A stretch of DNA of 64,000 nt from Chiridota heheva (Eukaryota > Echinodermata > Holothuroidea > Apodida > Chiridotidae): NCBI GenBank assembly GCA_020152595.1, contig JAIGNY010001179.1, forward strand, positions 707,001 through 771,000, written 5' to 3'. Numbering within the stretch: position 1 is the first letter of the stretch; the number at the start of each line of letters is the position of its first letter. Under the pieces are notes generated by a model. That model worked only from the letters and a program-made list of their open reading frames with translations. It made no database searches and was not told the DNA's origin. A program made the translations under genes and the position numbers. Below, in pieces: positions 4,929-63,169 of the stretch.

Positions 4929-5169
4929 TTATAAGGGAAGATAGTACACTTTATCACAGATGTCATCATACAGATCACCTCCACCAGATCTATGAGTGAC
5001 ACTAAAAAGCCGATATCATAAACAACAAAGCCAGAGAAATATTGGGCATCAACATTGAACCAAAACATGTAACAGCAGAACTAAAGAAAAAATCTCCGAC
5101 ACGCGCCACAACTAAACCAAAAAGCTAATCAACCATCATTATATATAAACCGCATCCAACAATCTTTCA

Positions 5170-5865
5170 ATGTACGATTTTAAGATTCTACATCTCAACG
5201 CCAACTCCATCTTCAATAAGCAGCTGGAGATAATGGACTACTTATTTACCCAAGACATCGACATAGCATGCTTCAATGAAACAAGACACACCAACGCACG
5301 ACAACCACCTTACTTCCAGGGTTACACAGTCATCTCATCCCACCTAAATAACACAAGAGAACGAGGAGTAGCCATAGCTATCAAGTCAAACATCTCATTC
5401 CAACAACTCCGACTTCAGCCACCAACAGGTGAGGCCATCGGCATCACAGTAACTCTTGACACAGGAAGAAAAGTAGCAATCATCAGCACCTACCAAAGAC
5501 CTACAACAGATACAAGTTTCCCAACAACATGGTTCCGGAACATAATAAAGAAACACAAACACATTATCATCCTCGGCGATCTAAATGCAAAACACATAGA
5601 TCTGGGCAACAACACCACAAACTATCACGGCACACAACTTGTTGACATCCTCAACAACACCCAGTTAATTTGCCTGAACAACGGTCAAGCTACCAGGATG
5701 CCCACTAATACTATTCACGAACCAAGCCAACTAGACTACTGTTTAGTCTCTCAAAGCATCAATCAAATCATCCACAACTTTTCATCGGCGATGATCTCAG
5801 TTCTGACCACCTACCACTTGTACTTCATATTTCTAACAAACCGCAGTCCAAAGAACCGAATCTGA
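5170..5865 (+). pseudogene. LINE ORF2: AP-like endonuclease domain
   Basis: Opens with 'FKILHLNANSIFNKQLEIM' (the LNAN motif), then 'ACFNETRH' (catalytic Glu), 'IIILGDLNAKH' (GDxN), and should close with the SDH motif. The reading frame is lost at about 5785: the expected 'SSDHLPLVLHI' is found one base out of phase. This domain nicks the target DNA to prime reverse transcription. A one-base frameshift separates it from the downstream linker, so the protein cannot be made from this copy. The start at 5170 follows about 240 bp without coding signal after ORF1. Confidence 0.78.
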
Positions 5866-7898
5866 AACCAGATTACAAGAAGGCAGATTGGCCAAAATAC
5901 AGAGAGGAAATCACCAAAAACATAACCAACATCAAAAACATTTGCAGTTTCCAAGACATTGAACAAGCGGCACAGGACATCACTAACCTTATCGTCGCAG
6001 CAAGTGATTTATCAATACCCAAAATCAAACAACAAAAACCACAAGGCATCCCAATTCACATAAGGAACCTAATAAAACAGAGGAGGAGACTACGCAGATC
6101 TTTCTTTCAAACTAAAGATATCTCTATCAAAACCAATATCAACCAAATCACGAAAAGAATACAAGATGCCATTAAACAACAGCGAATCTCCCAGCATGAC
6201 AACTTATGCAAACAAGTATCAAATGAAAAAGACCCGGCTAAATTTTGGAAACTCATCAAAAAAACCATCAATATTAAACGAATTAAAACATCCAGCCCAC
6301 CCATCAAGTACAACGGAACAACTGCTCACAATGATAAAGACAATGTGGAATTATTCCGAAGCTTCTTCTCCACAGTTCATCAAATTACGGATGAACCCTT
6401 TCACAACGAGAAGATCTCAAAACTGGCTAACTTTATTCAACGTGGGTATCCTCAGTCCTACCACCCAACAAACAACATCAACCAAGACTTACATGATAGT
6501 ACGCAGATAACACCGCTCAACATAAAAGAAGCAATAAGGAAAGCAAAGAATACCTCACCAGGAAGAGATGGAATTCAATATATTCACATCAAGAAAGCAC
6601 CAGCATGCCTTCTACACAGCCTCATTCCAACACGGATTCTTTCCGGTCATCTGGAAAACTTCAAACACAATCCTCATACCAAAACCAAACAAAGATACAA
6701 GTCAACCACAAAACTATCGGCCCATCAGCCTACTCCCAATCCTGGGAAAGTGTCTAGAGAAGGTCATTTCAAGTCATCTCTCTAACTATCTCGAAGACAA
6801 CAACATACTCCCCGACAGCCAGGCAGGCTTCAGGAGGAAAAAGTGCACATCCGATCAACTCTTCCGTTTATTACAAGACACTATCACAGCTAAAAATCAA
6901 AGACGTCAAACAATAGCAGCTTTCTTTGACGCCGAAAAGGCGTTCGACAAATTGTGGCACAACGGCCTTCTCCTAAAGATGCGCAAATTCAACATCCCAG
7001 AACACCTTACACGATGGATCGCTAGCTATCTAAGGAGCAGAACCACTACATACACAATAAAAGACAGCTATTCTCAGCCTTTGACCATTTCAACAGGTAC
7101 ACCTCAAGGTAGCACTATCAGTCCAATTTTATTCATCATGTTTACAGCCGATATACCACAACCGCCGACAAAGAATATTCAACTATCGCAATTTGCAGAT
7201 GATATAGCCATCTGGTCCACATACCTACACTACGACAAAGCAGTAAACAACCTACAAAATTATATTCACACCATAGAAAAATGGAGTAATGACTGGAAAA
7301 TTCGACTTAACCCAGCCAAGTCACAGATCCTCCACATCGCAAAGAGACGGAAATTCGACGATAACACAATCCTCACATACCAAGGAACACCAATACCAAA
7401 AGTCACGCATGTCAAATACCTTGGAGTCATCATCGATCAAAACCTCACATTTCAAAAAACAACACAACGCAACTATTTCAAAGATGAAACAGCGAGTCAA
7501 TCTTTTACACAGACTAGCAGGCACTCAAGAAAATCCTAAAGCTACGCCGGAAACTTCAATGAAAGTATATAAAATGCTAATACGACCCATCATAGAGTAT
7601 GCAGCACCAGCTCTTTGCAACCTTTCTGATCATCAACTTGAAGTACGAAGCGACCCAACGAAGGGCTTGCAGAATTGCTCACCATCTACACAATGAAACT
7701 TCTGTAACTACCACCAACGCTATAGCCAACATCCCGACAGTCAAAGACCGCCTCATCAAGCTTCAAAGCAACTTTCTCACCAAATGCAAACAACAAGATC
7801 ATTACCTTCACGACTTCATCATCAAACACATTAACGCCAGCCATTTTGCCAAGAACAATACACCACTAGAACAAATCACCATTGCAGATTTCACGTAA
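5790..7898 (+). pseudogene. LINE ORF2: linker, reverse transcriptase and C-terminal tail
   Basis: Fragments in several frames give a collinear RT: '(N)TSPGRDGIQY' near 6550, 'YRPISLLPILGKCLEKVI' near 6715-6770, 'FFDAEKAFDKLWH' near 6925-6960, 'GTPQGSTISPILF' near 7100, the catalytic 'FADDIAIW' near 7192-7215, and 'VKYLGVIIDQNLTF' near 7410-7450. The tail 'MLIRPIIEYAAPAL' and 'ATQRRACRIAHHL' lies in other frames, up to the stop near 7898. The catalytic aspartates are intact but frameshifts break the chain near 6500, 7490 and 7640. Family role: target-primed reverse transcription. Confidence 0.78.
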
Positions 7899-8431: not shown

Positions 8432-9790
8432 GGTGGGACAGTTTGAGAGGTTACGTTTTAATAGGCCAAGTATAGAGTTAGCTTTCTTGGTTATGTTATG
8501 TATATGTTTATCCCATCTAAGTTTATTATCAATTTCAACACCTAGGTATGGGTGGGAGTTGACATGTTTTAGTGGCTGGTTGCATAAGGTATACACAGGT
8601 GATTTAAAGCATTTCTTAGAGGAAATTGACAAGATGTAGCATTTAGCGGGGTTGAAATTCATTTGCCATTTGTTTTGCCATTCTTCAAGTTTGTTAAGAT
8701 CATCTTGGAGGATTTGTTGGTCAGAGGGGTTATCAATTGTTCTGTACACAAGGCAGCAAACAGTCTGACTGTGCTGTTTATATTATCAGGGATGTCATTT
8801 ACATATAAGAGGAAAAGTAATGGACCCAAGAAATGTACTTGTGGTACACCGGATAAAACCTGTTTAGAATCAGAGATTTCACCATCGCAAACAACACGCT
8901 GGATGCGGTTGTTGAGGAATGATGCAAACCAGGCCAGAAGATTTCCATCAATGCCATAGGCGGAAAGTTTGGATAACAGGCACTGGTGGGGGACTTTATC
9001 AAAGGCTTTTGAGAAGTCAAGAATAGCCATAGAGACGTTACTGTTTTGGTCAATTTGTTTAGAGATATCATTTATTGTTAAGAGGAGTTGTGTTTCAGTC
9101 GATCTTTTTGCACGGAAGCCATGTTGTAAATCATTTAAGATATTACGCTCATCAAGGAATTTCATCACATGTGAGTGGATTATATGCTCAAGGATTTTAC
9201 TACAAATGCAGGTGAGGGAAATAGGTCTATAATTAGCTGGGTTTTGTTTATCACCTTTTTTAAAAACGCTACATATGTTTGCTTCTTTCCGCTTGTTAGG
9301 GATAGTACCATTATCGACAGAGGTTTGAAAGAGGTCATCAGCGTGTGCTTTTAGAAACCATGGTGGTATTTGGTCAGGACCTGAGGCTTTGTTGGGGTCT
9401 AGGTTATGCAGTTGCTTTTTGACACCTTCTGGGGTAATTATAAGTTGGTTTATTTTGCTGTTGGTAAGTGGTTTAGTTACAGGAATTTGGGAGGTGTTTT
9501 CTTCTGTGAAAACACTGAAAAACTGGCCATTTAGAATGTTAGCTTTAGTTTTACTGTCACTGCAGAGTTTACCGTTATTTAGTAGATCAGACACACCTAC
9601 AGAGTTACTTCTTAATCTTTTGATATAGGACCAGAATGCCTTTGGGTTTTCGTTAAGTGAGTTTTTAAGTTTATCACAGATGAAGGTGTTTCTAGCTTCT
9701 TTGAGGTTTTTATGGACAGCCTTTCTAAAGCTTTTACAGGTAGTCCAGTCATTGGCTTGTTGATTAGTCTTAGCTATTTCAAACAGGATT
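8432..9790 (-). mobile_element. CR1/L2-like LINE, RT region (part 1 of a split element)
   Basis: A minus-strand RT ORF with 'NPKAFWSYIKRLR' near 9620, 'NKASGPDQIPPWFLK' near 9370, 'NYRPISLTCICSKILEHII' near 9200, 'AILDFSKAFDKVPHQCLL' near 9000, a damaged 'LSGVPQ..LGPLLFLLYVND' near 8830, then 'YLGVEIDNKLRWDKHI' near 8530. The catalytic FADD motif is destroyed by a frame break near 8755 (it reads 'FAALC'). The endonuclease half is missing: recognisable sequence ends near 9780. It continues at 4473-3893 after the nested LINE. Confidence 0.82.
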
Positions 9791-10390: not shown

Positions 10391-10708
10391 TAAAGGAAAA
10401 AATAACTACTAAAAAAATTGTAGAAAACACGGTGTGCAACGAGAGCGACGTAACATCTGATTATTTTTTCTCATACTATTTCGCTCCGTTTTCACTTCAC
10501 TTTGCACCAATTTTTGTTTTATATCTTCATTTTTCTGTGGATGGGCTTCTGTTCTCGGTGAGATCGTTTCTTTTATATTTTCCCTTTCGTTCTGACCAGA
10601 CTTTCGCGCCTTTCGTTACTAGTACAGCAATTTGTATATAGTAGTTCCGCGACTTTTTTTCTAGCTCTCTTCGGTCTCTCGGCCCTTGGTTTTTTTCTTT
10701 CTTGTATT

Positions 10709-11430
10709 ATGCCGAAGCGCTTGTACATTGACCATGACCCTCCCTCCCCTCCCCGTGACCCACCTGCTACCTCCATTGACCATTCTTCAACCCCAATCCC
10801 CAAAATCTTAATTATACATGCCACCGACAAGCAAAAAAGCTTTAAAAACGTTTCTCCCTTCCTCATACATAAAGCGCTCTACGGCCTTATCGGTACCCTC
10901 CCCAAGGTCTCTACCCTCAGATCCGGCGATCTCCTGGTGCACTGCACCAGGGGCACTTAAGCCACCACCCTCCTCTCCACCCAAATCCTAGCCAACACTG
11001 GTATTGACATCAGTCACCCCCAACTGTTCCCTGAACTCCAGCAAAGGCCTCATTCGCACCAGAGATCTTGCTTACTTAATCGATGATGACCTCGTAGAGG
11101 AACTGGCAAGCCAACACGTTATTGAAGCCCGTCGTCTCGTTCTCAAGAGAGACGGAGCCGAAACACCCACCAATACAATACCATCTTCCTTACTTTCGCC
11201 ACACCAGCTCTCCCTCCCACATCATTGCCAGCTACTTAAGAATCCCAGTCGCCCCTTACATTCTCAACCCTCTACGTTGTTATAATTGCCAGAGGTATGG
11301 CCATGGGAAAAACTCCTGCCGCAGCCAAGACAACACCTCCTGCACAAATTGTGACGGTATAATCACCCAGCCAACCACCCCTCCTCGAAAGACTGCCCCA
11401 CCTGGCTTCAGAAAAAAACAAATATAACTA
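10709..11430 (+). pseudogene. I/Nimb-like LINE ORF1
   Basis: The start at 10709 is supported by the matching, though mutated, start region in the 46-47 kb copy. The N-terminal part has 'SFKNVSPFLIHKALYGLIG' and 'LRSGDLLVHC', the RNA-binding-like core seen in I/Nimb ORF1 proteins. After a stop near 10960 the reading continues in other frames to the zinc knuckle 'CYNCQRYGHGKNSC' near 11278-11320 and a second cysteine cluster ending in 'KTAPPGFRK'. From 11430 to about 12030 lies the proline/threonine-rich tail, also broken. Family role: nucleocapsid-like RNA binding. Confidence 0.7.
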
Positions 11431-12029
11431 AACTTAAAACCCTTAATCCCAACATAACTAGGCCAGGAAGCAATTCCTCGCTTCCCTCCACACCAAGCCT
11501 TCCTACTCGAACGTAGTCTCCTCTAACACCAATACCGCCCCACCCCCTCCCCCCAACACAATTAAAACTGACTCACATGCCCAAACCGACCTCACCTGGC
11601 TCTTCTTACCTAGTCCTAAGCCCATCACCATTGCCAACAACCTAACCTAACCACACCCAATACCCACACCACTTCTCTCCTCAACCTCCCTTCCTACTCT
11701 AAAGCCCCCACCTCCCCCTACACCAACATCACTAATACCATCATACATCAAACTAAAACCAGCCAGGCTAACAATCAACAAACCAACCAACAAACAACCA
11801 ACCAAAGAACAACCATTTAACAAACAGCCCGCCACCCAAACCCACATGCATGACACTGAAGAGAATATGGATTGTTCGATTACCGAACACACCGATTATA
11901 CTTCTCGTCCAATTTTCAAAAAGAATCGCTTCCAAAGAAACAGATCCAAAAAAAAACAAGCAAACTCCGACCCAACAGATCTTCCTGCAGATAACCCCCT
12001 GCCTCCTTATGGCGTGCACCACAAACAAT

Positions 12030-14560: not shown

Positions 14561-14899
14561 CCTCCCCAATCACCAGCCTTCATGTTAAACCCAACGAACC
14601 CCCTTTCTACTTAGATGTAAAAAGCTAAGCCTCTCTTATGCTTTTAGAGTCCTCACCAACACCCAGAACCCTATTTACAACCTCATTAGGTACCCCAATT
14701 TCTTCACCCTCTTTGATAGGACTAAAACCCTATTCCCTCCCTTCAGCTTACACATTAAATCAGACCTCTTCCATCTCGGCATCAACCCCGCCACTTTCGG
14801 CACCTACTCCTGGCCCACTTTTCCTCCTTGGGCTACCCCCTCCCTTCTGTCCACCTAGGCCTCTCCACTCATCACAAAACTCAAACCCACCCTAACCTC

Positions 14900-15690
14900 T
14901 TCATCAATCTCCACAACCAAATCAAAGACCAACTCTCAAATTACACCTCCATCTATACTGATGGCCCCAAGGAAGGCAACAAGACAACTGCTGCTGCCGT
15001 CATCCAAGACATCACCCTCAGTAGCAAACTTCCCGACTACTCATCCATCTTTTCAGCCAAGGCTAAGGCCATTGTCCTCGCCCTTAATCTTACTGAGCAC
15101 TTTTCGTTCAGCCACTTTGCCATTTTCTCTGACTCAAAGGCTGTTCTTACTTCTTTACTTAATCTTAAATGGGATAACCTCACATGCCACCTCCTCCTCC
15201 GGAAACTCCTTTCTCCCACCCTCTGCAGGAAAAGTGTTCTTTTCTTCTGGATACCCAGCCATGTTGGCGTCCCTGGCAATGACAGGGCTAATGCAGCCGC
15301 TAAGCTTGCCCTCAACCTCCTCCCTACCCCTTTCCCAAAACCCTCTCTGACATCAAACCGCTTATCGCTTCCCTTGTTTGTGACCGTTGGCAAACCTCAT
15401 GGAACTCCCAAATTGATAACAAACTCCATGTCATCCAGCGCACAATTCCGATCAAATCCAACATCAACAACCAACCTCTCTCGTATCGACAAAGCTCATA
15501 GAATTGGTCACACCCACCTCACTCACTCCCACCTCCTTATTGGCTCTCCCAACCCCTCTGCAACAATTGCCACTGCACCCTCACAGTACATCACGTTCTC
15601 CTTGCTTGCCCCTGTACAACCTTCCCAGAGCTTCCCTCGCTCCCCACAACTCAATTGCGGAGTTCTTCCAGAAAAATCCTCCGGATAAAA
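14900..15690 (+). pseudogene. I/Nimb-like LINE ORF2: RNase H domain and tail
   Basis: 'SIYTDGPKEGN' near 14949 gives the first Asp. 'FSAKAKAIVLALNL' near 15055 stands where the family has AE, so the catalytic Glu position reads Lys. 'FAIFSDSKAVLTSLLNLKW' near 15117-15170 gives the second Asp. 'FFWIPSHVGVPGNDRANAAA' near 15240-15300 gives the terminal motif. The domain is in one open frame (14828-15688), then a Cys/His-like tail and 3' UTR follow. Its family role is to remove RNA from the RNA:DNA hybrid. Confidence 0.78.
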
Positions 15691-16489
15691 TTATCTCCTT
15701 CCTTCATCATACTTCCCTCTACAACCATATTTAATTCTCCTCTTCCACCCCCTCTGTACTTTGTTTTTGTTTCAACCATGCACCTCCCCTCTCGAACACA
15801 GCTTTCTGACCTTTTGTTCTTGAATTTCTCTCATTCTCCCCCTGTTTCCTTTCCTTCCTACCTCTAGAATGATCTAACCTCTCAGGCACAATTTGACCCT
15901 CGTTGTCGTGGTGCCGTTAAGCCCCCATCAAACAAATTAAAAAAACAAAAACATTTTAATACAGTTAAAAAAAAACAAAACAAAAGACACCTGCAAAAAA
16001 TGGTGCAAATAGCACCTGCTTAAACATATACATACAACTAACAAATGAAAATGTATCCCCCCTCCCCTCTCTTCCCTTCCGGGTCTGATCAGTTGTAGAC
16101 AACAACAATGGTGGAAATGGTGTATACGTTAAATAAAATGAGATGCGTTTGATGCAACCTCCGATAAGCTGATAAATGCGTTTGCTTTGTGTAAGTTACT
16201 CGCCAGTACAAAAAACTGTTTTAAATGATTATTTTGAATGAGAAAACCCTTTTTCCTCCAACGGTTTTCCTGCATGAATAATCTAACTCCATACTTTAAT
16301 GACAACTCTTTTTAATTTAAAAAAACGCACGAAACAATTATCGAAAGTAAAAACTGATCACAAAAGCAAATAATGTGATCATTTCCCATCAGGAAAATGA
16401 TAATAACTTTATTTCAGGCCCCTCTCTGCATGTATTATACAGTTATATGCGCTAACCGGACTACGTACCTGACTACGTCCGTATATATG

Positions 16490-17263: not shown

Positions 17264-18749
17264 ATAATACATTTAGAGATAGCATTTAGTTATAACTATC
17301 ATACATTCATTGTTTAATGTATAATATTTCAGAGACCCATTTTCTGTATTGAAACTAAGGCCGTCCTTGCTACTGTTCTTTCTAAAAGTACGTTGCCATT
17401 TTCTCTGATTTTATATCTGTCCTCGCGGCCAGTCCAGGCCAAAATGTGGGACAACCCAATAATCTTAAGTACAGAATAAAATAAAACTTGTAAGTAAGGA
17501 GAAATATCCTGCTGGATGCTATAGGTATCCTTGGAAACGTTTGAGCACACAAGGCTGTTAAAGATGCATTTGACCTCAACCCTTCCCATTTTTCCTTATT
17601 TTTTGACTTTACCTTCTTTTGGCACACATGACCATTTTGTCCAATTTTTGTGATGTGGAAGTCTGATTAAATTACCAACCAACAAAAGTTTTGAAGTGTA
17701 CTCCTTTACAAGAACATCCTTTAAAAAAGGGCTGTCGTGGCGTTTTATTTTTGTATGGATAGTAATAAAGAAAGCAGTGGCATGTTTTAAGGGGTGGGGC
17801 TTCGTCCATAAGAATCATAGCCTCCCTCCCTGAAAAAAAAAAAAAAAAAAAATTTCTGCGAAAAATTTCATGAATTTTAAGGAATATCTTCGTCAATTTT
17901 CGGAAAATCTCCTTCATTGTGGGGAAAATTTCCTTCATTTTCGCGAAATCAAGCTCTTTAGTGAAATCATCTTCAATTTCCGGGAATTTTCTGTCAATTC
18001 GAGAAATTCTCAGGAAGTGTTACCAAAAAATCAAACAGGAAATAGAAAAATTTCCGTCCTTTAACAGCATTCAGTGTTTTTTTTTTACGTTTATTTTCGG
18101 GGGGCGGGAGTGGGGAGCTTAAGCCCCCTCAAAAACGAAAAGCTAGACACGACCCTTAAAGGCTATGTATCGTGATTCAAATGTGGCGGCGTCATTTTAT
18201 TTAAAAACGATACTGATTGGACTATTAATGTATACCATTGTGTTTCAACTAATCAAAACACAGGAATTAAATTATATTTACCTCGTACGTTAGAGACGAA
18301 AATTAGGCTTTAAAGAACGAGAACAAAGTTATGTAGGTTTTAATTTATTAATTATAAAATAGAATAGATGCAATAAATAAAGACGATGTGCAACTTGTTC
18401 TCCTGAAATAAATTCTACCCACGCCGAATTTGACAGGTTGCAAGATTACAGTGCATGTGTACGTGCAGACGTGATGGACACTAAAAATTTCTTAACCATG
18501 TTAACATAGCTCTTTTAAGTTTAAGAACCGCGTCCGGTGTAGTCAACATTTTGACCGTATTATACACCTTAGCCACTACATGGCTGTTATACAAGTATTC
18601 AGTATTGCCTAGCATGTAAGTGCCTACCGAGTGAGGTGTTTATCTCACTACATCCAGTGAGACTAGCCTCGTTCATTTCAAATTTCAAATAATATCATTT
18701 CTCCTTCACTATCTCTTTGTGACTCTTCAAAAAATATTAGTGTAATAAA

Positions 18750-18919
18750 TTTACCCCGCTAAGCGTAGCGGGGATATTTACGAGAGTTATACTTACCTTC
18801 CATGCTATAATATGCAATCTGGTCACACGACCTGATTCTAACGCACTTCTAACCGAACCTAAAAAACGCAGTAACCAGCCAAGCCCTGACCTCCATAATA
18901 CCTCTGTACCACCTCACTC
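18750..18919. repeat. DIRS-like copy 1, left (coding 3') terminal repeat
   Basis: The outermost bases form CCCCGCTAAGCGTAGCGGGG (18754-18773), a perfect 8-bp stem with AGCG loop, which the right end lacks. From ATATTTAC onward the sequence matches the reverse complement of the right end, with small differences at the outer edge (CGAGAGTTATACTTACC versus TTCAAGTTATACCTTACC) and near identity after CTTCCATGCTATAATATGC. Confidence 0.85.
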
Positions 18920-18963
18920 AACATTCCACCGAGGCCTGAACGAGAGAGGGGAGGCGGGCGGGA

Positions 18964-19065
18964 TGCATGGAAGGTAAGTATAACTCTCGTAAATATCCCC
19001 GCTACGCTTAGCGGGGTAAATTTACTTCAAGTTATACCTTACCTTCCATGCTATAATATGCAATC
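18964..19065. repeat. DIRS-like copy 1, internal complementary region
   Basis: The left part (GCATGGAAGG...GCGGGGTAAA, 18965-19020) is the reverse complement of the element's left terminus. The right part (TTTACTTCAAGTTATACC..., from 19021) is the reverse complement of its right terminus. Joined at 19020/19021, the block equals the reverse complement of a circle in which the right end abuts the left end. This is the defining ICR arrangement of DIRS1-type elements, thought to template completion of a circular intermediate. Confidence 0.85.
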
Positions 19066-19956
19066 AGATTGCAACCGAGGATAGGAAGGAAGGTAGTTCA
19101 GATCGCCGCACAATTTTTTTTTTTTTTTTAATGGCTGGTACGAAAACTCACACGAACCGAATCCCGTTCAAAGGACGAAATTCCTTCACCTCGGAAGGAT
19201 GAAAGACCTCAAGAGTGGGAAGAACTCAAACATAGTAAACCACGGCGAGGTACAGTCAAACCGAACAAGGCACCATTCGTTGACAGTAACGGAGGCAAAC
19301 CTCGAAAGAACCTGAGCGAAAAGCCCAGAAAAACAAGCCAACCGGAAGAGCGTTTGGACACAATTACAGCAAAGTGTCCACAAAAAACGCCACAAGCCAC
19401 ACCGGATTCGTCCACGAGACGGAACCGGCGAGTAAACCACGATCGGGAACGAAGCGTGTACCAACGAAAACGAATTGAAGAAAACCCGGACAAGGGAAAA
19501 ATTCGTTAGCGCATAACCGCGTAAGAGCTAAAGTTAGCGGGGGAACACGAACGTCGAAAAGTGAGTCAGACCAAAAACAAGAGAAAAACCGCAAAAAGCG
19601 TTTTCTCGAACGGCGGCACGAGAGATCCCGTGAAAAGAGGTTATGCCCCGAACCCGAGTGCATACCGCGGCCGTTCTATGAACAGTTCAGACTACTTTGA
19701 AAGAAAGCCACTGGATGATCTATCGGAGGAAAATGTCACATGACACACTACGAAAAGATCTCCCAGAACTTACCAATGGTCGCGAGTCAAAGACCGTAGA
19801 CCCCACTGGAAAAACCCTGGTGGATAGCTGCAAGTTATCCCAGAGCTCATGACGGAACTAAGCTTGAGAGAGAGCCCACCTCCACAACGGGGAGGGGTGA
19901 ACAACCCCTCAGAAAAGCCATGCTACGTCGAGGAAAGGCGGGCCGGGGCCACACCA

Positions 19957-20484
19957 TCAAACGAAGCGCTCCGGGACTGAGATGCAGTCCGCCGGAGCCC
20001 GGGAAAGAGACAAAAATCGTCCCTGACCCGAGGCTCGTACGTGAAGCCTGCAAGGTCTTGAGCAGCCAAAGTTCGTCCTGCGCCGAGACGAGAGGAACGA
20101 ATCCAGAACACGTGGAGTCCGTACCTCTCTGTCCGAAAAGGAGACCACAACCGTGGCGCAAAACTGAAAAGCCTCGCTCAGCACTAGCGGTAAAAGGGGA
20201 AAAACCCCGGCATTCTGCCTGTCGAAAAAGGTCAAGTACCCGTCCCAGTTTCCGACAGAAGGGGTCACAAGAAAAAGTGCCCCGACCTTGATCAAAGCCC
20301 CCGTCGGCACCGACGGTGATATCGGACGGGTGAAAACTTCGTTCCTTACACCAGGTGGAGCACCGCACCACCACCAAAGGGTGTGACCACCGACTGAAAG
20401 TGTAAAGCGGAGGGACTGAACGACACCATCCGCAGTCCAGAAAAAACTGCGGCTGAGCAAAGGTTGTTGAAACCGACTGACCAA
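19957..20484 (-). pseudogene. DIRS-like copy 1, degenerate RT-connection/RNase H region
   Basis: The minus-strand frame reads 'RFQQPLLSR' then 'SVGGHTLWWWCGAPPG' and 'RPISPSVPTGALIKVGALF'. In copy 2 the aligned stretch reads '..WWCGFFHRSRGA..PSVVTDAS.TGWGAHL', and in the 61-kb fragment 'SPSVPTDAS'. The PTGAL here is therefore a mutated TDAS: the catalytic Asp of RNase H is lost. The WW pair before it is a common DIRS/Ngaro feature. The longer overlapping ORF on 19847-20491 is the same DNA in another frame. Confidence 0.6.
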
Positions 20485-20519
20485 AAATCAAAGGCTAAGC
20501 GAAACAAAAAGGCAGGCGT

Positions 20520-23500
20520 TAATATAAAACGTATACAAGAAGGGCTGCCAACCGTGTAAGGCTATGTAGCTGTGAGGACGGCATGGGTCGTAAGACCGCG
20601 GAGCCCGTACAACATAGTCGACGGCACCAAGCGGGTCCGAAAACTGTAGCAGTTGCGGGACGCGTAGCTCCAGGCCACGCCTATCAACAGCGAAACTTGC
20701 CTAAGAAGTTGACTGGAGAAAGTGTTAACGTACTACGTATAGTAACAACCTTGAAAGCGCGGAGCCTACGGCTACGGCGCGGAGAAACGAATACCGTATG
20801 TCTGTGCGGGCAGTTAAGTAACAGGCCGTAAAACCGCAAGGAAGCAGCTGTAAGGTGTTAAAGTATGGAATGAACCATACGTGCCGTTGTTGGTAATAGC
20901 TACCCCAAACGTAAGGTTGTCTATCAAAAGGCCACCTATGGTCAAGAAAAATATCCTTCATGGAGGTAATATTGACAAGTAGGGGTAACGTACTCGTCAA
21001 CCGTATGAGTCATAAACCCCAACACTGGGGTAGAAATCACGAAAGAGGTGACGTCCTGTATACTACACGGACCGTTAAACACCCTGCACCACGGAGCTGA
21101 AAAGCGCGTGGCTACTGGGGACTTACGCCGTACAAAGTACGCAACCCCGTTAAGTATTATAGATCCGTTATGGGTCTACAAGGCGTCAGCATGACAAGTA
21201 AAAACCACGAGTCCTCCGCCAACTATGTCTCTGTGCACCACGGAGCAAAAGCTCGTGGCTACGAGGGGGACAACTGGTACTGGTACGTGTCCCGAACGTA
21301 GTAGCTATCAGTACAAAGGACCGTCTAGGTCCACGATAGCGTGAACGTACTACACCTGTAACGCGGAGTCGTTATCTCATTATACCTCTGTTCACCACGG
21401 GGCCACCGAGTAAGTGGCTACGCGTAGGGAAGATGCACGCAGTACGCGTTCCCGTTGAGAATAGTTAAAAGATATATATACGGGAGGCCGTAAGGAATAC
21501 GGAGGAGTTCACGTGCCACGCAAGCTATACGATGTCGTAAACTGAGTTTGTTTCATCACGGAGCTCACGAAACCGGTAGCTGCGTGGGGAAGAGGGGACT
21601 ACCGTCGTACTCAGCACGTATCCCGGTAAGAGAAACGGCCGCGAACTCAGTAGTTCATGGCTACTGGTCCTCTACCACACAGCGCGCTGCTGGTATAGGC
21701 CGTTAACTCCGTTTGTATAAAATCACACGGAGCCGCGAAGCTGGCGGCTCTGGCGTGGGACTGCCGTTGAACGCTAAAAACGTCCCAGCAAGAAAAACGA
21801 CCGCGGAACACTGCAACACGCCGGCTAACGGTCGCAATATCCCGAAGTTCCGTTACCGGGTTTATCGACGTTACGGAAACCGCGTTAATATCTGTAGAAT
21901 GCGAGCGAAGGTCTCGTTCGACGCAAGAATCACATTCAGAGTAGTTTGAGCGGTCGCGTGGAACTACGTAACACGGAAGGAATAGCTCGTGATGGTATGC
22001 CTCCCGTAAAGAAGGAAATCTTATCACCCGAGCGCTAGGCCTCGAAACCCGAGCAAGCGCTAACACGCGATGCATCCTGGGAGCGTGACGTGCCGACAAG
22101 CGGGACTCGTCCCCGTGTCCATGAACTGGTGAAAAACTATGCGGAACCGTGGCGTTCACGCGAAAATCTCACCAAGTCAGCTCACACGGACGGGGATCTC
22201 GAAACTAACGGGTGTGACGTCGTTACCTTGCTGTAGAACTAAGCAGCACTACAGACCCAAACGTCATCCCATGCCCCGGACGGAGCCAAGTTGTGTTACG
22301 GACCCTTCACGGGCCGTAAAAACAAGCCGGGGGCGTATGGAACCGACATTCGGAGCCGCACGGACCCTAATGGACCCGATGCAAGTAATCCAATGGCTCT
22401 ACAACTAGCCGTAAAAGGGGACTAACTCACGCAAGACCCGTGGCGTGCCGCCTCTTGTGGGCCTACGGTCCCATCGCGGAACCGAGGACCACAGCGGTGT
22501 ACACAGTTTGAACATGTCGATAACACCAAAGCGCAACCTAAGAAGCGTTTACATGCGACGATCGCAGGACAGTCAAGGCGCGCCAGAACGCGACCGACAC
22601 TAGGGACCTGCCCGTCGTGTCGATGATATAGGCGCAAAACATCGCGGAACTGTGGCGTTCAACGTGGAAAATCCTACAGAGGCAGTTCACACGGCCGTGG
22701 AACAGCGTAGCCATGACCAAGCAGCTTCCTAGCTAGCGAACTCAACCGGGGTTCATCGACAGTGCACGTTATCCCGTTGCAAAAACTCTGAAGTCGTACA
22801 GGCCCGCACGGTCTAGAGAAGCGTTTGCACGCTATGCAAAGCGGGACCTCTGAGGTGCGTAACGTACCGACGCACGGAGGCCTGTCCTCCGTGCCTACGA
22901 TACTGGTGAAAGTAATTGCGGAAATGTAACGTTCAACGCGGATAATCGTATTAATGGTGTTTACATGATCGTGGAACTGCGTAGCTAATGGCCACGGAAC
23001 CATTAATAGAATAGCTCTCACGGCGCTATACTACTTGTGAAGATTATCACTTGTCACCTGGCCACATAGCTCGTAGCTAGCGGGTGCATATCCGGGTAAA
23101 TCGTACGGTGTACGATATCCCGTTACAAAACTACGGAGCCGTACGCATCCGAACACCGGAGCCGCATAATCTGCACGCGTAACGCGTGAGATGGATGTGA
23201 CCGGAGCGTAAATCAAAGAAGCGTTAGCACGCTACGCCGGGACATCAAGGGTGTGTAGAGCATCGACGCCCGAGGACCTGTCCTCCATGTCCATGATACT
23301 GGTGAAAATAATTACGGAACGGTAATGTTCAGCGCAGACAATCTTAATTGCGTTTGCGAAGTCGTGGAACTGCGTAGCTAATGGCTACGGGACCAAGAAG
23401 AAAATAGCTGTCGTGATGCTATACTTCTTGTAAAGAAAGTCATCTGTCACCTGACCACGTAGCGTAGTAGCTAGTGGGCGTATAACCGGGTGAACCGTAC

Positions 23501-23530
23501 AGTGTACGTTATCCCATTAAAGATAAGTTC
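20520..23530. repeat. DIRS-like copy 1 interior: CpG-rich repeats with recurring hairpins
   Basis: Hairpins of CCACGGAGC-loop-GCTCGTGG type recur at about 21088-21111, 21238-21258, 21393-21418 and 21556-21590, and more loosely near 21672, at a spacing of about 150-165 bp. Further on, a longer unit recurs ('ACTGGTGAAA..GCGGAAC..GT.GCGTTCA') near 22122, 22630, 22905 and 23300, roughly every 300-500 bp. No ORF here has a recognisable domain. This is the 5' half of the element in coding sense, where ORF1 and the start of RT would be expected. Confidence 0.55.
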
Positions 23531-23697
23531 CGCTCACTGGAGCCGTCCAATGGAAGCGAAAGGACCCGTAAACGCGGACCGTGGAATCGTATGGAACCGT
23601 ACGGACCCGTAAACACGGGCCGCGGAACCGTCCAATGGAACCGTAAAACACGGACCGTGGAACCGTACGGACCCGTAAACATGGGCCGTGGAACCGT
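23531..23697 (+). repeat. Decamer array GGAxCCGTA inside DIRS-like copy 1
   Basis: Alternating GGA(G/A)CCGTA and GGACCCGTAAAC decamers make a short-period array. The same words are scattered at 22280-22400 and again in copy 2 at 44536-44770, so the array belongs to the element. Confidence 0.65.
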
Positions 23698-24417
23698 ATA
23701 ACTGTCGTAGCCGTTGGGTACGGGACCAAGAAGAAAAATAGCTGAATCAATCCTGAAAATTAAATATTTTATCTCAAATCTGTGTAAGAAAAATAAAAAT
23801 ATTCATATGCCTGTTAACGTGAAAACGAAAATAAGCTCGCTTGTAACAACTGTAGCTCCCTAGAGTTGTTACAGGGCGACCCCACATTTACCCAGCGGTG
23901 ACTACGACCCAATGCGCATGCGCCAAAATCGAAAAAGGAAATTGGCCTAATGCATACGAGAAGGTGTACTGAAATATCCTAACGTGCTAAACACTATACA
24001 TAGTATAACGCTAGGGTCACCTCGAGGCGGGTGGGGCTAAGGGAGAAAAAGACTAATTCCCGGGGCGAGAGGTCCCCTAGACAGGCACAACTTGTGCTCT
24101 AGGACCTAAAACACCCACCACGAGAGTAGGACGCTCTCGAACTAGCCACTCGCTATGTACGAATGGAGACAAAAACCCGCTATCCTAAGTGTAGGCTACA
24201 CGGGTAAAGTCGTGTAGGTCGGCCGAAGAAATCTCGGACCCATGGCTACCTCACCCTTCTCTCGGAAGACTTGAAAAGGCGAGCCAGATGAGAACGGGCA
24301 GCGTAAAAACCATTCAGGTAGAAGCTGCCTAAGAGAAAAGAGTTAGAAAGGTTAATTAAAAATAAAATAAAAATGACCAGTTTTCAGCGATGTTAGTGAC
24401 AACAACGCGCTGAAAAA

Positions 24418-24562
24418 GAGTGAGGTGGTACAGAGGTATTATGGAGGTCAGGGCTTGGCTGGTTACTGCGTTTTTTAGGTTCGGTTAGAAGTGCGTTAGA
24501 ATCAGGTCGTGTGACCAGATTGCATATTATAGCATGGAAGGTAAGGTATAACTTGAAGTAAA
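24418..24562. repeat. DIRS-like copy 1, right (coding 5') terminal repeat
   Basis: Reverse complement of 18771-18919 over about 145 bp, ending CTTGAAGTAAA. It lacks the terminal CCCCGCTA hairpin of the left end. Confidence 0.85.
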
Positions 24563-24563
24563 T

Positions 24564-27650: not shown

Positions 27651-28084
27651 TTGGAAGGAAGAGGCCCCTGAGGGGAGCTCAAGTAAGGGGGAAGGAGGGA
27701 GGGGGGGGGTAGCTGTCCGAATTCCATGTCTTGGAAAGGCTTGTGATCTATGAAAGGGAGTGCTATAGAGAAAGAAAATTTGATTGGGGGTCCCCTCGTC
27801 ATTGTGAGAAGACTTGGGGAGTTGGTGTTGGGTGGATGGTGTACTGAGTTAGGAAGATTTGTTTTTTGTTGGTTGGTAGTTGGGGTTCTGTTAGTGTTTT
27901 TTTTTGTGGCCTGAATAGTGATGGGTAGCAGGTAAGATTGATAAAGGTTGAGGCAGTTGATATGGGTCTGTGGGTGTTGCCGTTTGTTGAGTCAGGTGAT
28001 CTAATAAAAGGGAGGGGGGGGAGGGGGTGAGATCCTTGTTGGTAAAGTGGCTTTCTCCGGGGTGAAGCAAGCATCTTGGTGTGA
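27650..28084 (-). pseudogene. LINE ORF1 C-terminal remnant
   Basis: Between the endonuclease start and the minisatellite. The minus-strand frames are rich in Pro, Thr, Asn and Gln and lack a clear zinc knuckle. By position it is the ORF1 tail and the ORF1-ORF2 junction. The assignment is by context only. Confidence 0.4.
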
Positions 28085-28680
28085 GGGGCCTGAAATGTTG
28101 GTGATAGGGGAGGAAGTGCTAGGGGAGGAAGTGCTAGGGGAGGAAGTGGTAGGGGACAAGGTGGTAGGGGAGGAGTGGTAGGGGAAGTGGTAGGGGGAAG
28201 AATGTGGTAGGGATAGTGGTAGGGATAGGAAGTGGTAGGGATAGGAAGTGGTAGGGGGAGGAAGTGGTAGGGGAGGGTGGAGGTAGTGGTAGGGGAGGAA
28301 GTGGTAGGGTAGGGGAGAAGTGGTACAAGGAGGAAGTGGTACAGGAGGAAGTGGTACAGGGAGGAAGTGGTAGGGGAGGAAGTGGTGGGGGAGGAAGTGG
28401 TGGGGGAGGAAGTGGTAGGGGAGGAAGTGGTGGGGAGGAAGTGGTAGGGGGAAGTGGTGGGGGAGGAAGTGGTAGGGAGGAAGTGGTAGGGGAGGAAGTG
28501 GTAGGGGAGGAAGTGGTAGGGGAGGAAGTTGTAGAGGGAGGAAGTGGTAGGGGAGGAAGTGGTAGGGGAGGAAGTGGTAGAGGGAAGAAGTGGTAGGGGA
28601 GAAAGTGGTAGGGGAGGAAGGGGTAGGGGAGGAAGTTGTTGGGGAGGAAATGGTAGGGAGGAAATGGCGGATAAGAGTGG
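28085..28680 (+). repeat. 15-bp G-rich minisatellite
   Basis: About 35-40 units of GGAGGAAGTGGTAGG with small indels, nearly free of C. The ORFs across it (Gly/Ser/Val/Glu repeats) are by-products. It directly abuts the larger 22/23-bp array. Confidence 0.9.
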
Positions 28681-28759
28681 CCCCTCCTGGGATGGAAAGC
28701 TGATGAATCCAGACTGTCGGTATGGATGTCCCTGGAGATGGTGTGGGTGCGGGGAGAGG

Positions 28760-31700
28760 TGGGGAGGGGGGGAGGGGAGGAGTGGTGGTTGGGTTGGAGT
28801 GGGGAGGGGAGGTTGGGTTGGAGTGGGGGTGGTGGTTGGGATGTAGTTGGAGTGGGGGTGGTGGTTGGGTTGGAGTGGGGTGGTGGTTGGGTTGGAGTGG
28901 GGTGGTGGTTGGGTTGGAGTGGGGTGGTGGTTGGGTTGGAGTGGGGGTGGTGGTTGGGTTGGAGTGGGGGTGGTGGTTGGGTTGGAGTGGGGTGGTGGTT
29001 GGGTTGGAGTGGGGTGGTGGTTGGGTTGGAGTGGGGTGGTGGTTGGGTTGGAGTGGGGTGGTGGTTGGGTTGGAGTGGGGGTGGTGGTTGGGTTGGAGTG
29101 GGGTGGTGGTTGGGTTGGAGTGGGGGTGGTGGTTGGGTTGGAGTGGGGTGGTGGTTGGGTTGGAGTGGGGTGGTGGTTGGGTTGGAGTGGTGGTGGTGGT
29201 TGGTTGAGTGGGGTGGTGGTTGGGTTGGTGGGGTGGTGGTTGGGTTGGAGTGGGGTGGTGGTTGGGTTGGAGTGGGGTGGTGGTTGGGTTGGAGTGGGTT
29301 GGGTTGGAGTGGGGTGGTGGTTGGGGTTGGGAGTGGGGGTTGGAGTGGGGTGGTGGTTGGGTTGGAGTGGGGGGTGGTGGTTGGGTTGGGATGGAGTGGG
29401 GGTGGTGGGTTGGAGTGGGGGGTGGTGGTTGGGTTGGAGTGGGGTGGTGGTTGGGTTGGAGTGGGGGTGGTGGTTGGGTTGGAGTGGGGGGGTGGTGGTT
29501 GGGTTGGAGTGGGGGTGGTGGTTGGGTTGGAGTGGGGGTGGTGGTTGGGTTGGAGTGGGGTGGTGGTTGGGTTGGAGTGGGGTGGTGGTGGGGTGGGGGG
29601 TGGTGGTTGGGTTGGGTGGGGTGGTGGTTGGGTTGGAGTGGGGGTGGTGGTTGGGTTGGAGTGGGGTGGTGGTTGGGTTGGAGTGGGGGTGGTGGTTGGG
29701 TTGGAGTGGGGTGGTGGTTGGGTTGGAGTGGGGGTGGTGGTTGGGTTGGAGTGGGGTGGTGGTTGGGTTGGAGTGGGGGTGGTGGTTGGGTTGGAGTGGG
29801 GTGGTGGTTGGGTTGGAGTGGGGTGGTGGTTGGGTTGGAGTGGGGTGGTGGTTGGGTTGGAGTGGGGTGGTGGTTGGGTTGGAGTGGGGTGGTGGTTGGG
29901 TTGGAGTGGGGTGGTGGTTGGGTTGGAGTGGGGGTGGTGGTTGGGTTGGAGTGGGGTGGTGGTTGGGTTGGAGTGGGGGTGGTGGTTGGGTTGGAGTGGG
30001 GGTGGTGGTTGGGTTGGAGTGGGGGTGGTGGTTGGGTTGGGGGTGGTGGTTGGGTTGGAGTGGGGTGGTGGTTGGGTTGGAGTGGGGTGGTGGTTGGGTT
30101 GGAGTGGGGTGGTGGTTGGGTTGGAGTGGGGTGGTGGTTGGGTTGGAGTGGGGGTGGTGGTTGGGTTGGAGTGGGGTGGTGGTTGGGTTGGAGTGGGGGG
30201 GGTGGTGGTTGAGTGGGGGTGGTGGTTGGGTTGGAGTGGGGTGGTGGTTGGGTTGGAGTGGGGGTGGTGGTTGGGTTGGAGTGGGGGTGGTGGTTGGGTT
30301 GGAGTGGGGTGGTGGTTGGGTTGGTGGGGTGGTTGGAGTGGGGGTGGTGGTTGGGTTGGAGTGGGGGTGGTGGTTGGGTTGGAGTGGGGGGTGGTGGTTG
30401 GGTTGGAGTGGGGGTGGTGGTTGGGTTGGAGTGGGGTGGTGGTTGGGTTGGAGTGGGGTGGTGGTTGGGTTGGAGTGGGGGTGGTGGTTGGGTTGGAGTG
30501 GGGTGGTGGTTGGGTTGGAGTGGGGTGGTGGTTGGGTTTGAGTGGGGGTGGTGGTTGGGTTTGGGGGTGGTTGGGTGGGGGTGGTGGTTGGGTTGGAGTG
30601 GGGTGGTGGTTGGTTGGAGTGGGGGTGGTGGTTGGGTTGGAGTGGGGGTGGTGGTTGGGTTGGAGTGGGGGTGGTGGTTGGGTTGGAGTGGGGGTGGTGG
30701 TTGGGTTGGAGTGGGGGTGGTGGTTGGGTGGAGTGGGGTGGTGGGGGTGGTGGTTGGGTTGGAGTGGGGTGGTGGTTGGGTTGGAGTGGGGTGGTGGTTG
30801 GGTTGGAGTGGGGGGGTGGTGGTTGGTGGTTGGAGTGGGGTGGTGGTTGGGTTGGAGTGGGGGTGGTGGTTGGGTTGGAGTGGGGTGGTGGTTGGGTTGG
30901 AGTGGGGGTGGTGGTTGGGTTGGAGTGGGGTGGTGGTTGGGTTGGAGTGGGGGTGGTGGTTGGGGGGGTGGTGGTTGGGTTGGAGTGGGGTGGTGGTTGG
31001 GTTGGAGTGGGGTGGTGGTTGGGTTGGAGTGGGGGTGGTGGTTGGGTTGGAGTGGGGGTGGTGGTTGGGTTGGAGTGGGGTGGTGGTTGGGTTGGAGTGG
31101 GGTGGTGGTTGGGTTGGAGTGGGGTGGGGTGGTGGTTGGTTGGGTTGGAGTGGGGTGGTGGTTGGGTTGGAGTGGGGTGGTGGTTGGGTTGGAGTGGGGT
31201 GGTGGTTGGGTTGGAGTGGGGGTGGTGGTTGGGTTGGAGTGGGGGTGGTGGTTGGGTTGGAGTGGGGGTGGTGGTGGTTGGGTTGGAGTGGGGTGGTGGT
31301 TGGGTTGGAGTGGGGTGGTGGTTGGGTTGGAGTGGGGTGGTGGTTGGGTTGGAGTGGGGTGGTGGTTGGGTTGGAGTGGGGTGGTGGTTGGTTGGGTGGG
31401 GGTGGTGGGGGTTGGGTGGGGGTGGTGGTTGGGTTGGAGTGGGGGTGGTGGTTGGGTTGGAGTGGGGGTGGTGGTTGGGTTGGAGTGGGGGTGGTGGTTG
31501 GGTTGGAGTGGGGTGGTGGTTGGGTTGGAGTGGGGGTGGTGGTTGGTTGGAGTGGGGGTGGTGGTTTGGAGTGGGGGTGGTGGTTGGGTTGGAGTGGGGT
31601 GGTGGTTGGGTTGGAGTGGGGGTGGTGGTTGGGTTGGAGTGGGGGTGGTGGTTGGGTTGGAGTGGGGTGGTGGTTGGGTTGGAGTGGGGTGGTGGTGGTT

Positions 31701-33935
31701 GGGTTGGAGTGGGGGTGGTGGTTGGGTTGGAGTGGGGGGTGGTGGTTGGTTGGGTTGGAGTGGGGGTGGTGGTTGGGTTGGAGTGGGGTGGTGGTTGGGT
31801 TGGAGTGGGGTGGTGGTTGGGTTTGGGGGGTGGTTGGGGGGTGGTGGTGGTTGGGTTGGAGTGGGGTGGTGGTTGGGTTGGAGTGGGGTGGTGGTTGGGT
31901 TGGAGTGGGGTGGTGGTTGGGTTGGAGTGGGGGTGGTGGGTTTGGGGTTGGAGTGGGGGGGGGTGGTGGTTGGGTTGGAGTGGGGGTGGTGGTTGGTTGG
32001 AGTGGGGTGGTGGTTGGGTTGGAGTGGGGTGGTGGTGGGGTTGGTGGTTGGGGGTGGTGGTTGGGTTGGAGTGGGGTGGTGGTTGGGTTGGAGTGGGGTG
32101 GTGGTTGGGTTGGGTGGGGTGGTGGTTGGGTTGGAGTGGGGTGGTGGTTGGTGGTTGGGTTGGAGTGGGGTGGTGGTTGGGTTGGAGTGGGGGTGGTGGT
32201 TGGGTTGGAGTGGGGTGGTGGTTGGTTGGAGTGGGGGTGGTGGTTGGGTTGGAGTGGGGTGGTGGTTGGGTTGGAGTGGGGGTGGTGGTTGGGTTGGAGT
32301 GGGGTGGTGGTTGGGTTGGAGTGGGGTGGTGGTTGGGTTGGAGTGGGGGGTGGTGGTGGGTTGGGTTTGAGTGGGGTGGGGTGGTGGTTGGGTTGGAGTG
32401 GGGGTGGTGGTTGGGTTGGAGTGTGGGGTGGTGGTTGGGTTGGAGTGGGGGTGGTGGTTGGGTTGGAGTGGGGTGGTGGTTGGGTTGGAGTGGGGGTGGT
32501 GGTTGGGTTGGAGTGGGGGGGTGGTGGTGGAGTGGGGGTGGTGGTTTGGAGTGGGGGGTGGTGGTTGGGTTGGAGTGGGGTGGTGGTTGGGTTGGAGTGG
32601 GGTGGTGGTTGGGTTGGAGTGGGGGTGGTGGTTGGGTTGGAGTGGGGTGGTGGTTGGGTTGGAGTGGGGGGTGGTGGTTGGGTTGGAGTGGGGGTGGTGG
32701 TTGGGTTGGAGTGGGGTGGTGGTTGGGTTGGAGTGGGGTGGTGGTTGGGTTGGGGGTGGTGGTTGGTTGGAGTGGGGGTGGTGGTTGGGTTGGAGTGGGG
32801 GTGGTGGTTGGGTTGGAGTGGGGTGGGGTGGTGGAGTGGGGTTGGTTGGGTTGGAGTGGGGTGGTGGTTGGGTTGGAGTGGGGGGTGGTTGGGTTGGAGT
32901 GGGGTGGTGGTTGGGTTGGAGTGGGGTGGTGGTTGGGTTGGGTGGGGGTGGTGGTTGGGTTGGAGTGGGGTGGTGGTTGGTTGGAGTGGGGTGGTGGTTG
33001 GGTTGGAGTGGGGGTGGTGGTTGGGGGTTGGAGTGGGGGTGGTGGTTGGGTTGGAGTGGGGGGGGTGGTGGTTGGGTGGTGGGGTGGAGGGGGTGGTGGT
33101 TGGGTTGGAGTGGGGTGGTGGTTGGGTTGGAGTGGGGGTGGTGGTTGGGTTGGAGTGGGGTGGTGGTTGGGTTGGAGTGGGGTGGTGGGGTGGTGGTTGG
33201 GTTGGAGTGGGGTGGTGGTTGGGTTGGAGTGGTGGGGGTGGTGGTGGTTGGGTGGGGTGGTGGTTGGGTTGGAGTGGGGTGGTGGTTGGGTTGGAGTGGG
33301 GTGGTGGTTGGGTGGAGTGGGGTGGTGGTTGGGTTGGAGTGGGGTGGTGGTTGGGTTGGAGTGGGGTGGTGGTTGGTTGGAGTGGGGTGGTGGTTTGGAG
33401 TGGGGGGTGGTGGTTGGTTGGTGGGGTTGGGTTGGAGTGGGGGGTGGTGGTTGGGTTGGAGTGGGGTGGTGGTTGGTTGGAGTGGGGTGGTGGTTGGGTT
33501 GGAGTGGGGTGGTGGTTGGGTTGGAGTGGGTGGGGTGGTGGGGGTTGGAGTGGGGGGTGGTGGTTGGGTTGGAGTGGGGTGGTGGTTGGGTTGGAGTGGG
33601 GGTGGTGGTTGGGTTGGAGTGGGGGGTGGTGGTTGGAGTTGGTGGTTGGGGTGGGGGGGTGGTGGTGGTTGGGTTGGGGAGTGGGGGGTGGTGGGGGTTG
33701 GAGTGGGGTGGTGGTTGGGTTGGGGTGGGGTGGTGGTTGGGTTGGAGTGGGGTGGTGGTTGGGTTGGAGTGGGGTGGTGGTTGGGTGGAGTGGGGTGGTG
33801 GTTGGGTTGGAGTGGGGATGGTGGTGGGTTGGGGGTGGAGTGGGGGTGGTGGTTGGGTTGTGGGGTGGTGGGGGTGGGTGGTGTGTGGTTGGGTTGGAGT
33901 GGGGTGGTGGTTGGGTTGTGGTTGGGTTGGAGTAG
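28760..33935 (+). repeat. Giant 22/23-bp G-rich minisatellite (about 5.2 kb)
   Basis: Roughly 230 units beginning GGAGTGGGG(G)TGGTGG and ending TTGGGTT. Length alternates between 22 and 23 bp through one G in the first G run, with occasional 1-12 bp indels. I see no cytosine on the plus strand from about 28751 to 33953. Neither strand offers stop codons, so the predicted plus-strand ORFs of up to 1240 codons are repeat artefacts. Each unit has several runs of two to five G, favouring G-quadruplexes. It lies inside ORF1 of the minus-strand LINE, where the C-rich sense strand would read Thr/Pro/Gln/Asn/His. Confidence 0.93.
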
Positions 33936-34140
33936 GTGATGAATTGGGAAAGGTGCAGGTATTCGGGTTCAGCTGGTTTGGGTATTTAGAGTCTAGGATT
34001 TTTCTAGCTTCAAGGTATGAGATGTTTTAATCTTGGAGAACTCCTTCTCCCTGAGCCACTTGGGTGGTGGAGGTAGGGAGGAGTTTAGATTAGGTGAAGG
34101 TTGAGCATTTAACAAGGTCTCCAGAATTGAGGCGTCTCTT
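33936..34140 (-). pseudogene. LINE ORF1 N-terminal fragment
   Basis: Minus strand from about 34140 shows 'RRLNSGDLVKCSTF', matching the 'LRSGDLLVHC' core of ORF1 in the 10.4-16 kb copy, then a low-complexity stretch that runs into the giant array. No upstream start codon or 5' UTR is visible, so this end is truncated near 34140. Confidence 0.55.

Positions 34141-37111: not shown

Positions 37112-63169
<26,058 letters not shown>

Follow-up and report, generated by a model that had tools for sequence, protein, structure and literature searches.

Repeat copies in the window and terminal anatomy of copy 1

The window, i.e. the whole 64-kb stretch of DNA analysed here, holds LINE-type ORFs at 5149-7539, 8659-9789 and 14759-15688, in which Pfam recognises endonuclease, reverse transcriptase and RNase H domains, and a long low-complexity, minisatellite-like stretch of PHSNPTTTP-type repeats at ~27800-34030, in which several frames of either strand are open. 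The LINEs identify the host as a eukaryote. The window also holds three copies of one repeat family, two with the full layout and one remnant, which together make up our material. Published systems are cited below from extracts of the respective articles.

Copy 1 spans 18747-24562 (5,816 bp), as delimited by BLAST and terminal alignments, and its sense strand is the minus strand. In the sense orientation it ends in TTT on both sides, which corresponds on the plus strand to AAA at 18747-18749 and 24560-24562 (triplets read by eye), and its circular junction triplet is AAA. The left terminus with its inverted terminal repeat (ITR), i.e. the sense 5' end, was placed at 24418-24562 (minus) by terminal alignments. 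The conserved part of the right ITR, at 18792-18919 (minus), is an exact reverse complement of 24418-24545 over 128 bp, and BLAST aligns the two ITRs at 99.3% identity over 136 bp. Outside the 128-bp run we observed a divergent part of 15-17 nt and, on the right side only, an extension (boundaries set by eye); this right extension occupies 18750-18776 (minus, ~27 nt, boundary likewise by eye). Copies 1 and 2 each carry AAA at either end, with flanks that otherwise differ, and no target-site duplication is visible at either copy (flanks compared by eye).

Copy 2 (40274-48096, minus; 7,823 bp) is an older member of the same family that carries later insertions and a tandem duplication of 289 bp at 41433-42011. 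Its layout is that of copy 1, with collinear blocks 63-75% identical between the two and shorter matches of 65-76% inside the repeat array, while the reversed sequence of copy 1, compared with copy 2 under the same settings as a control, gave 0 matches. The ITRs of copy 2 are identical at 116 of 146 aligned positions. Stretches within 46103-47495 of this copy resemble the window repeats at 15612-15936 and 10434-11440 on the opposite strand (79-83%), which would fit the insertion of a shortened LINE-like element. Copy 3 (61316-61440, minus) is a deletion remnant in which ~60 bp of right terminus (~61316-61376) are followed by ~70 bp of the RNase H region, with AGA at its one end.

The internal complementary region

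Copy 1 contains a composite block at 18965-19065 built from two halves that overlap at 19020-19024. The right half (18965-19024) is the exact reverse complement of the right terminus 18746-18805 (60/60), and the left half (19020-19065) that of the left terminus 24518-24563 (46/46); no strand is assigned to either half. The corresponding BLAST E-values within the window, 4e-25 for the 60-bp and 2e-17 for the 46-bp half, exclude a chance origin of these matches. The first-pass annotation had described this block as the reverse complement of the joined ends of the element, flanked on both sides by further terminal sequence. Both parts of that description stand, apart from an offset of 3 nt in position: the junction sequence GCGGGGTAAATTTACTTC is present, with a single occurrence in the window, at 19011-19028 (+) rather than at 19014-19031. 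The same composite had also been proposed for copy 2, and we find it there at 40491-40593 (no strand assigned) by BLAST and by alignment to that copy's own termini, which it matches at 51/62 and 42/48 positions (82-88%).

The block adjoins the minus-strand 3' end of copy 1, i.e. the 3' end of the sense strand. Four exact matches to a 14-nt core, CTTACCTTCCATGC, are present in the window, at 18792 and 19038 (+) and at 18965 and 24532 (-); these sites are the two ITRs and the two halves of the block in copy 1, with none elsewhere. According to the sections of PMC3266345 drawn on here, DIRS1-like elements are characterised by ITRs, a one-sided extension, lack of a target-site duplication and, close to the 3' end, an internal complementary region (ICR) whose halves overlap at the circular-junction triplet and which shares with the ITRs a core of at least 10 nt present in both ITRs and both ICR halves. 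Every terminal feature in those sections that can be tested here is found in copy 1, in agreement with the initial reading of the block as the ICR of a DIRS1-type element. The DIRS1-type terminal anatomy of copy 1 is thus supported.

Sense orientation and gene content

A six-frame motif scan detected the RNase H remnant VVTDAS*TGWGAHL in copy 2 at 42780-42823 (minus). The pattern TDAS..GWG occurs once in the six frames of the window, at this very place, and none of 2400 random sequences matching copy 2 in size and dinucleotide make-up contained it. In the extract of PMC2685390, 'LTTDAS' and 'ASKSGWG' are given as published DIRS1 pol motifs. The location of TDAS..GWG on the minus strand of copy 2 fixes the sense orientation of the family as minus. 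Homology with copy 2 (63% identity) places the RNase H region of copy 1 at 20070-20419 (minus), where TGAL stands in place of TDAS; copy 3 keeps TDAS, followed by a change of frame (both residue comparisons by eye). The scan that found TDAS..GWG returned none of the motifs RMPFGL, YLDD, DLFAS or a variant of ADALSR.

Profile and database searches gave no protein match. Pfam returned nothing for the six frames of copy 1 (stops read as X, E up to 1) or for the minus frames of copy 2, and in these same frames neither a tyrosine recombinase nor a methyltransferase domain was matched. NCBIfam gave no match with three minus-strand reads, two protein homology searches with 398 and 204 candidates gave none at E up to 10, and Phage records gave none either. 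A single match to PDB sequences, to a ribosomal protein at E 0.3, was taken as chance. Searching IMG/VR by protein yielded 7 stretches, none of them confirmed, and searching it by the RNase H motif yielded 0 loci with a long pattern and 16 with a shorter one, none DIRS-polymerase-like by eye. As a control, two of the LINE ORFs of the window were detected by RVT_1 (1.7e-45 and 1e-20); note that these are open frames and hence control only partially for read-through scans. In copy 2, the ORF at 41804-42271 (minus) bears some resemblance to a recombinase and could be a remnant of one, but a protein search with this ORF gave no match.

Since no profile or database protein was matched, the gene evidence for the DIRS assignment is one short motif, and since no recombinase was matched, we call copy 1 a non-autonomous derivative and not a full DIRS1-like member. 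Lacking recognisable genes, it falls short of a complete, autonomous element of this type.

The internal repeat array

At 22093-23744 (no strand assigned), copy 1 carries degenerate internal repeats whose units are 66-95% alike at several offsets, for example 22817-23125 and 23217-23519 (76.8%); within this array, Tandem Repeats Finder reports short arrays only and Rfam matched no family. Parts of it match copy 2 (22275-22442 against 44666-44830, E 2e-11; 23492-23622 against 44624-44756, E 9e-10), and the array, being partly common to both copies, is older than their split. A function of this array seems doubtful to us, and we take it as non-coding filler.

Comparison with known DIRS1-like elements

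The closest parallels to copy 1 are the TTT-ended animal DIRS1-like elements, XtDIRS3 and AcDIRS2 (PMC3266345) and Xenopus families (PMC9210276), for which the extracts describe the same TTT ends, AAA junction and absence of target-site duplication, and whose length near 5.8-6.2 kb also includes that of copy 1. In Table 3 of PMC3266345, XtDIRS3 is listed with TTT/TTT ends, an AAA junction, a divergent part of 11, a conserved part of 123, an extension of 34 and an ICR of 41-65, and AcDIRS2 with a divergent part of 26, a conserved part of 136, an extension of 28 and an ICR of 39-60. Copy 1 is comparable in its conserved ITR (128 bp, against 123-136), its right extension (~27, against 28-34) and its ICR halves (46 and 60, against 39-41 and 60-65). 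The difference lies in the interior: these elements are described as carrying GAG, RT/RNase H/MT and YR genes, whereas copy 1 has none recognisable and a degenerate repeat array instead.

Dictyostelium DIRS-1 likewise has ITRs and, on its 3' side, an ICR with complementarity to both ends, and its circular cDNA is reported as experimentally shown (PMC5633606, extract); in contrast to copy 1, the full-length element has three partly overlapping ORFs, and it is likened here by description only. Ngaro and PAT-like elements are tyrosine-recombinase retrotransposons and, according to the sections of PMC3266345 drawn on, have split direct repeats, whereas the repeats of copy 1 are inverted and accompanied by an ICR. 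The DIRS1-type terminal architecture itself is textbook; the interesting part is a young, gene-less copy.

Age and origin of copy 1

The terminal repeats and ICR of copy 1 are near-perfect; counted as free of differences over 234 compared positions, they give a 95% upper bound of 1.3% on their divergence, an optimistic bound because the runs were chosen as exact matches and partly overlap. For CpG, copy 1 has an observed/expected ratio of 1.21, compared with 0.59 for copy 2 and 0.51 for the whole window, and at sites where one copy has CpG and the other TG or CA, CpG is found 52 times in copy 1 and 9 times in copy 2. From its sequence, copy 1 looks young, with little decay since insertion, although part of this evidence consists of maximal exact runs, which are exact by choice, and gene conversion between the inverted repeats is an alternative cause of their identity. 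Its longest ATG ORF is 142 aa; with so little decay, the simplest account is that copy 1 was already gene-less before its last move. Its ends and ICR are intact, but genes for RT, RNase H or a recombinase cannot be recognised in it, so that a relative probably provided these enzymes in trans. We therefore consider it likely that copy 1 is a recently mobilised, non-autonomous DIRS1-like element using the proteins of its relatives.

Alternatively, copy 1 could be an old DIRS1-like element, once autonomous, that lost its genes to decay at this site, with its ITRs and ICR held identical by gene conversion. Closely spaced inverted repeats can convert one another, so this route is possible on general grounds, and genes that Pfam fails to recognise are what it expects. 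However, such an age is hard to reconcile with the high CpG ratio of copy 1 in a CpG-poor window and with a CpG loss that is one-sided, in copy 2; moreover copy 2, with the same layout, did not keep its repeats identical. We regard decay in place as unlikely.

Less probable still is an autonomous copy 1 with proteins that have diverged beyond the reach of Pfam and NCBIfam. At 19847-20494 the sense strand is open in two overlapping frames (215 and 176 aa), and DIRS1-like elements are known to have long overlaps between ORFs (PMC3266345, sections drawn on here). Against this, no ATG ORF exceeds the 142 aa given above, the RNase H motif of copy 2 is altered to TGAL in copy 1 (by eye), and 20417-24400, where the polymerase is expected, contains 46-62 stops per minus frame. 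We hold this reading to be very improbable. The two overlapping frames of copy 1 nevertheless count against the non-autonomous reading, in that they may have some coding function. Long open frames at 42660-43304 (214 aa) and 19847-20494 (215 aa), both minus, overlap the RNase H region in another frame, and their presence in both copies is possibly the trace of an overlapping ORF.

The length of these frames is to be read against the base composition of copy 1, whose sense strand is A-poor (15% A and 33% T over 19066-20416); a low A content lowers the density of stop codons and makes long open frames likelier by chance. Where the two copies are aligned, A is found only in copy 2 at 168 sites and only in copy 1 at 60. 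Hypermutation or editing was rejected as the origin of the A-poor strand, since the A excess of copy 2 replaces T, C and G alike. This spread fits better with an older A-poor family composition from which copy 2 drifts towards that of the host, and the low A content on the sense side of copy 1 is probably a long-standing feature of the family.

Finally, we reject as extremely improbable that a separate palindromic DNA transposon (MITE) makes up 18750-19065 and flanks other repeats by chance: the segment is near-palindromic by itself, but its matches include the far end (24418-24563) and not just the near one, the two copies share the same interior order, there is no target-site duplication, and no stand-alone palindrome without the interior, which the first-pass annotation had named as a refuting case, is found in the window, where the sole additional terminus (61316) is joined to RNase H interior sequence.

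Proposed mobilisation of copy 1

In the DIRS model (Cappello 1985; Poulter and Goodwin 2005, as cited in the extract of PMC5633606), parts of the termini are missing from the sense RNA; both ends are rebuilt on the ICR as template, which also aligns them so that a circle can close, and this circle is then inserted by a tyrosine recombinase at a matching triplet without target duplication. The perfect match between ICR and termini, the AAA junction and the absence of a target-site duplication in copy 1 fit this model. Applied to a recently mobilised, non-autonomous copy 1, the ICR would act as the template restoring the termini missing from the transcript, the ends would be brought together to form a circle with an AAA junction, and a recombinase presumably provided by a relative would insert this circle at AAA, again without target duplication. 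By analogy with the DIRS model, we infer that copy 1 replicated through a circle.

According to the same extract of PMC5633606, it is not fully proven that DIRS replication requires the ICR. An element with intact ITRs, extension and ICR but unrecognisable genes would single out these three as acting in cis, and copy 1 would offer a ready-made donor for a trans-mobilisation assay. In the literature searched, outside Repbase and subscription journals and partly from extracts, we found no description of a non-autonomous DIRS element.

Most transposon groups commonly include derivatives without genes, so that the surprise of a gene-less copy 1 is modest. A more far-reaching proposal is that copy 1 belongs to an active gene-less DIRS1-type family, for whose mobilisation in trans ends and ICR would suffice and in which the internal array would be functional as non-coding sequence (e.g. 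in RNA packaging or protection) and not debris; we see this as a tentative idea with a small chance of being correct. The right extension holds, at 18754-18773, a perfect 8-bp stem, CCCCGCTA/TAGCGGGG, around the 4-nt loop AGCG; adjoining the circle junction, this stem could be a candidate recombinase binding site.
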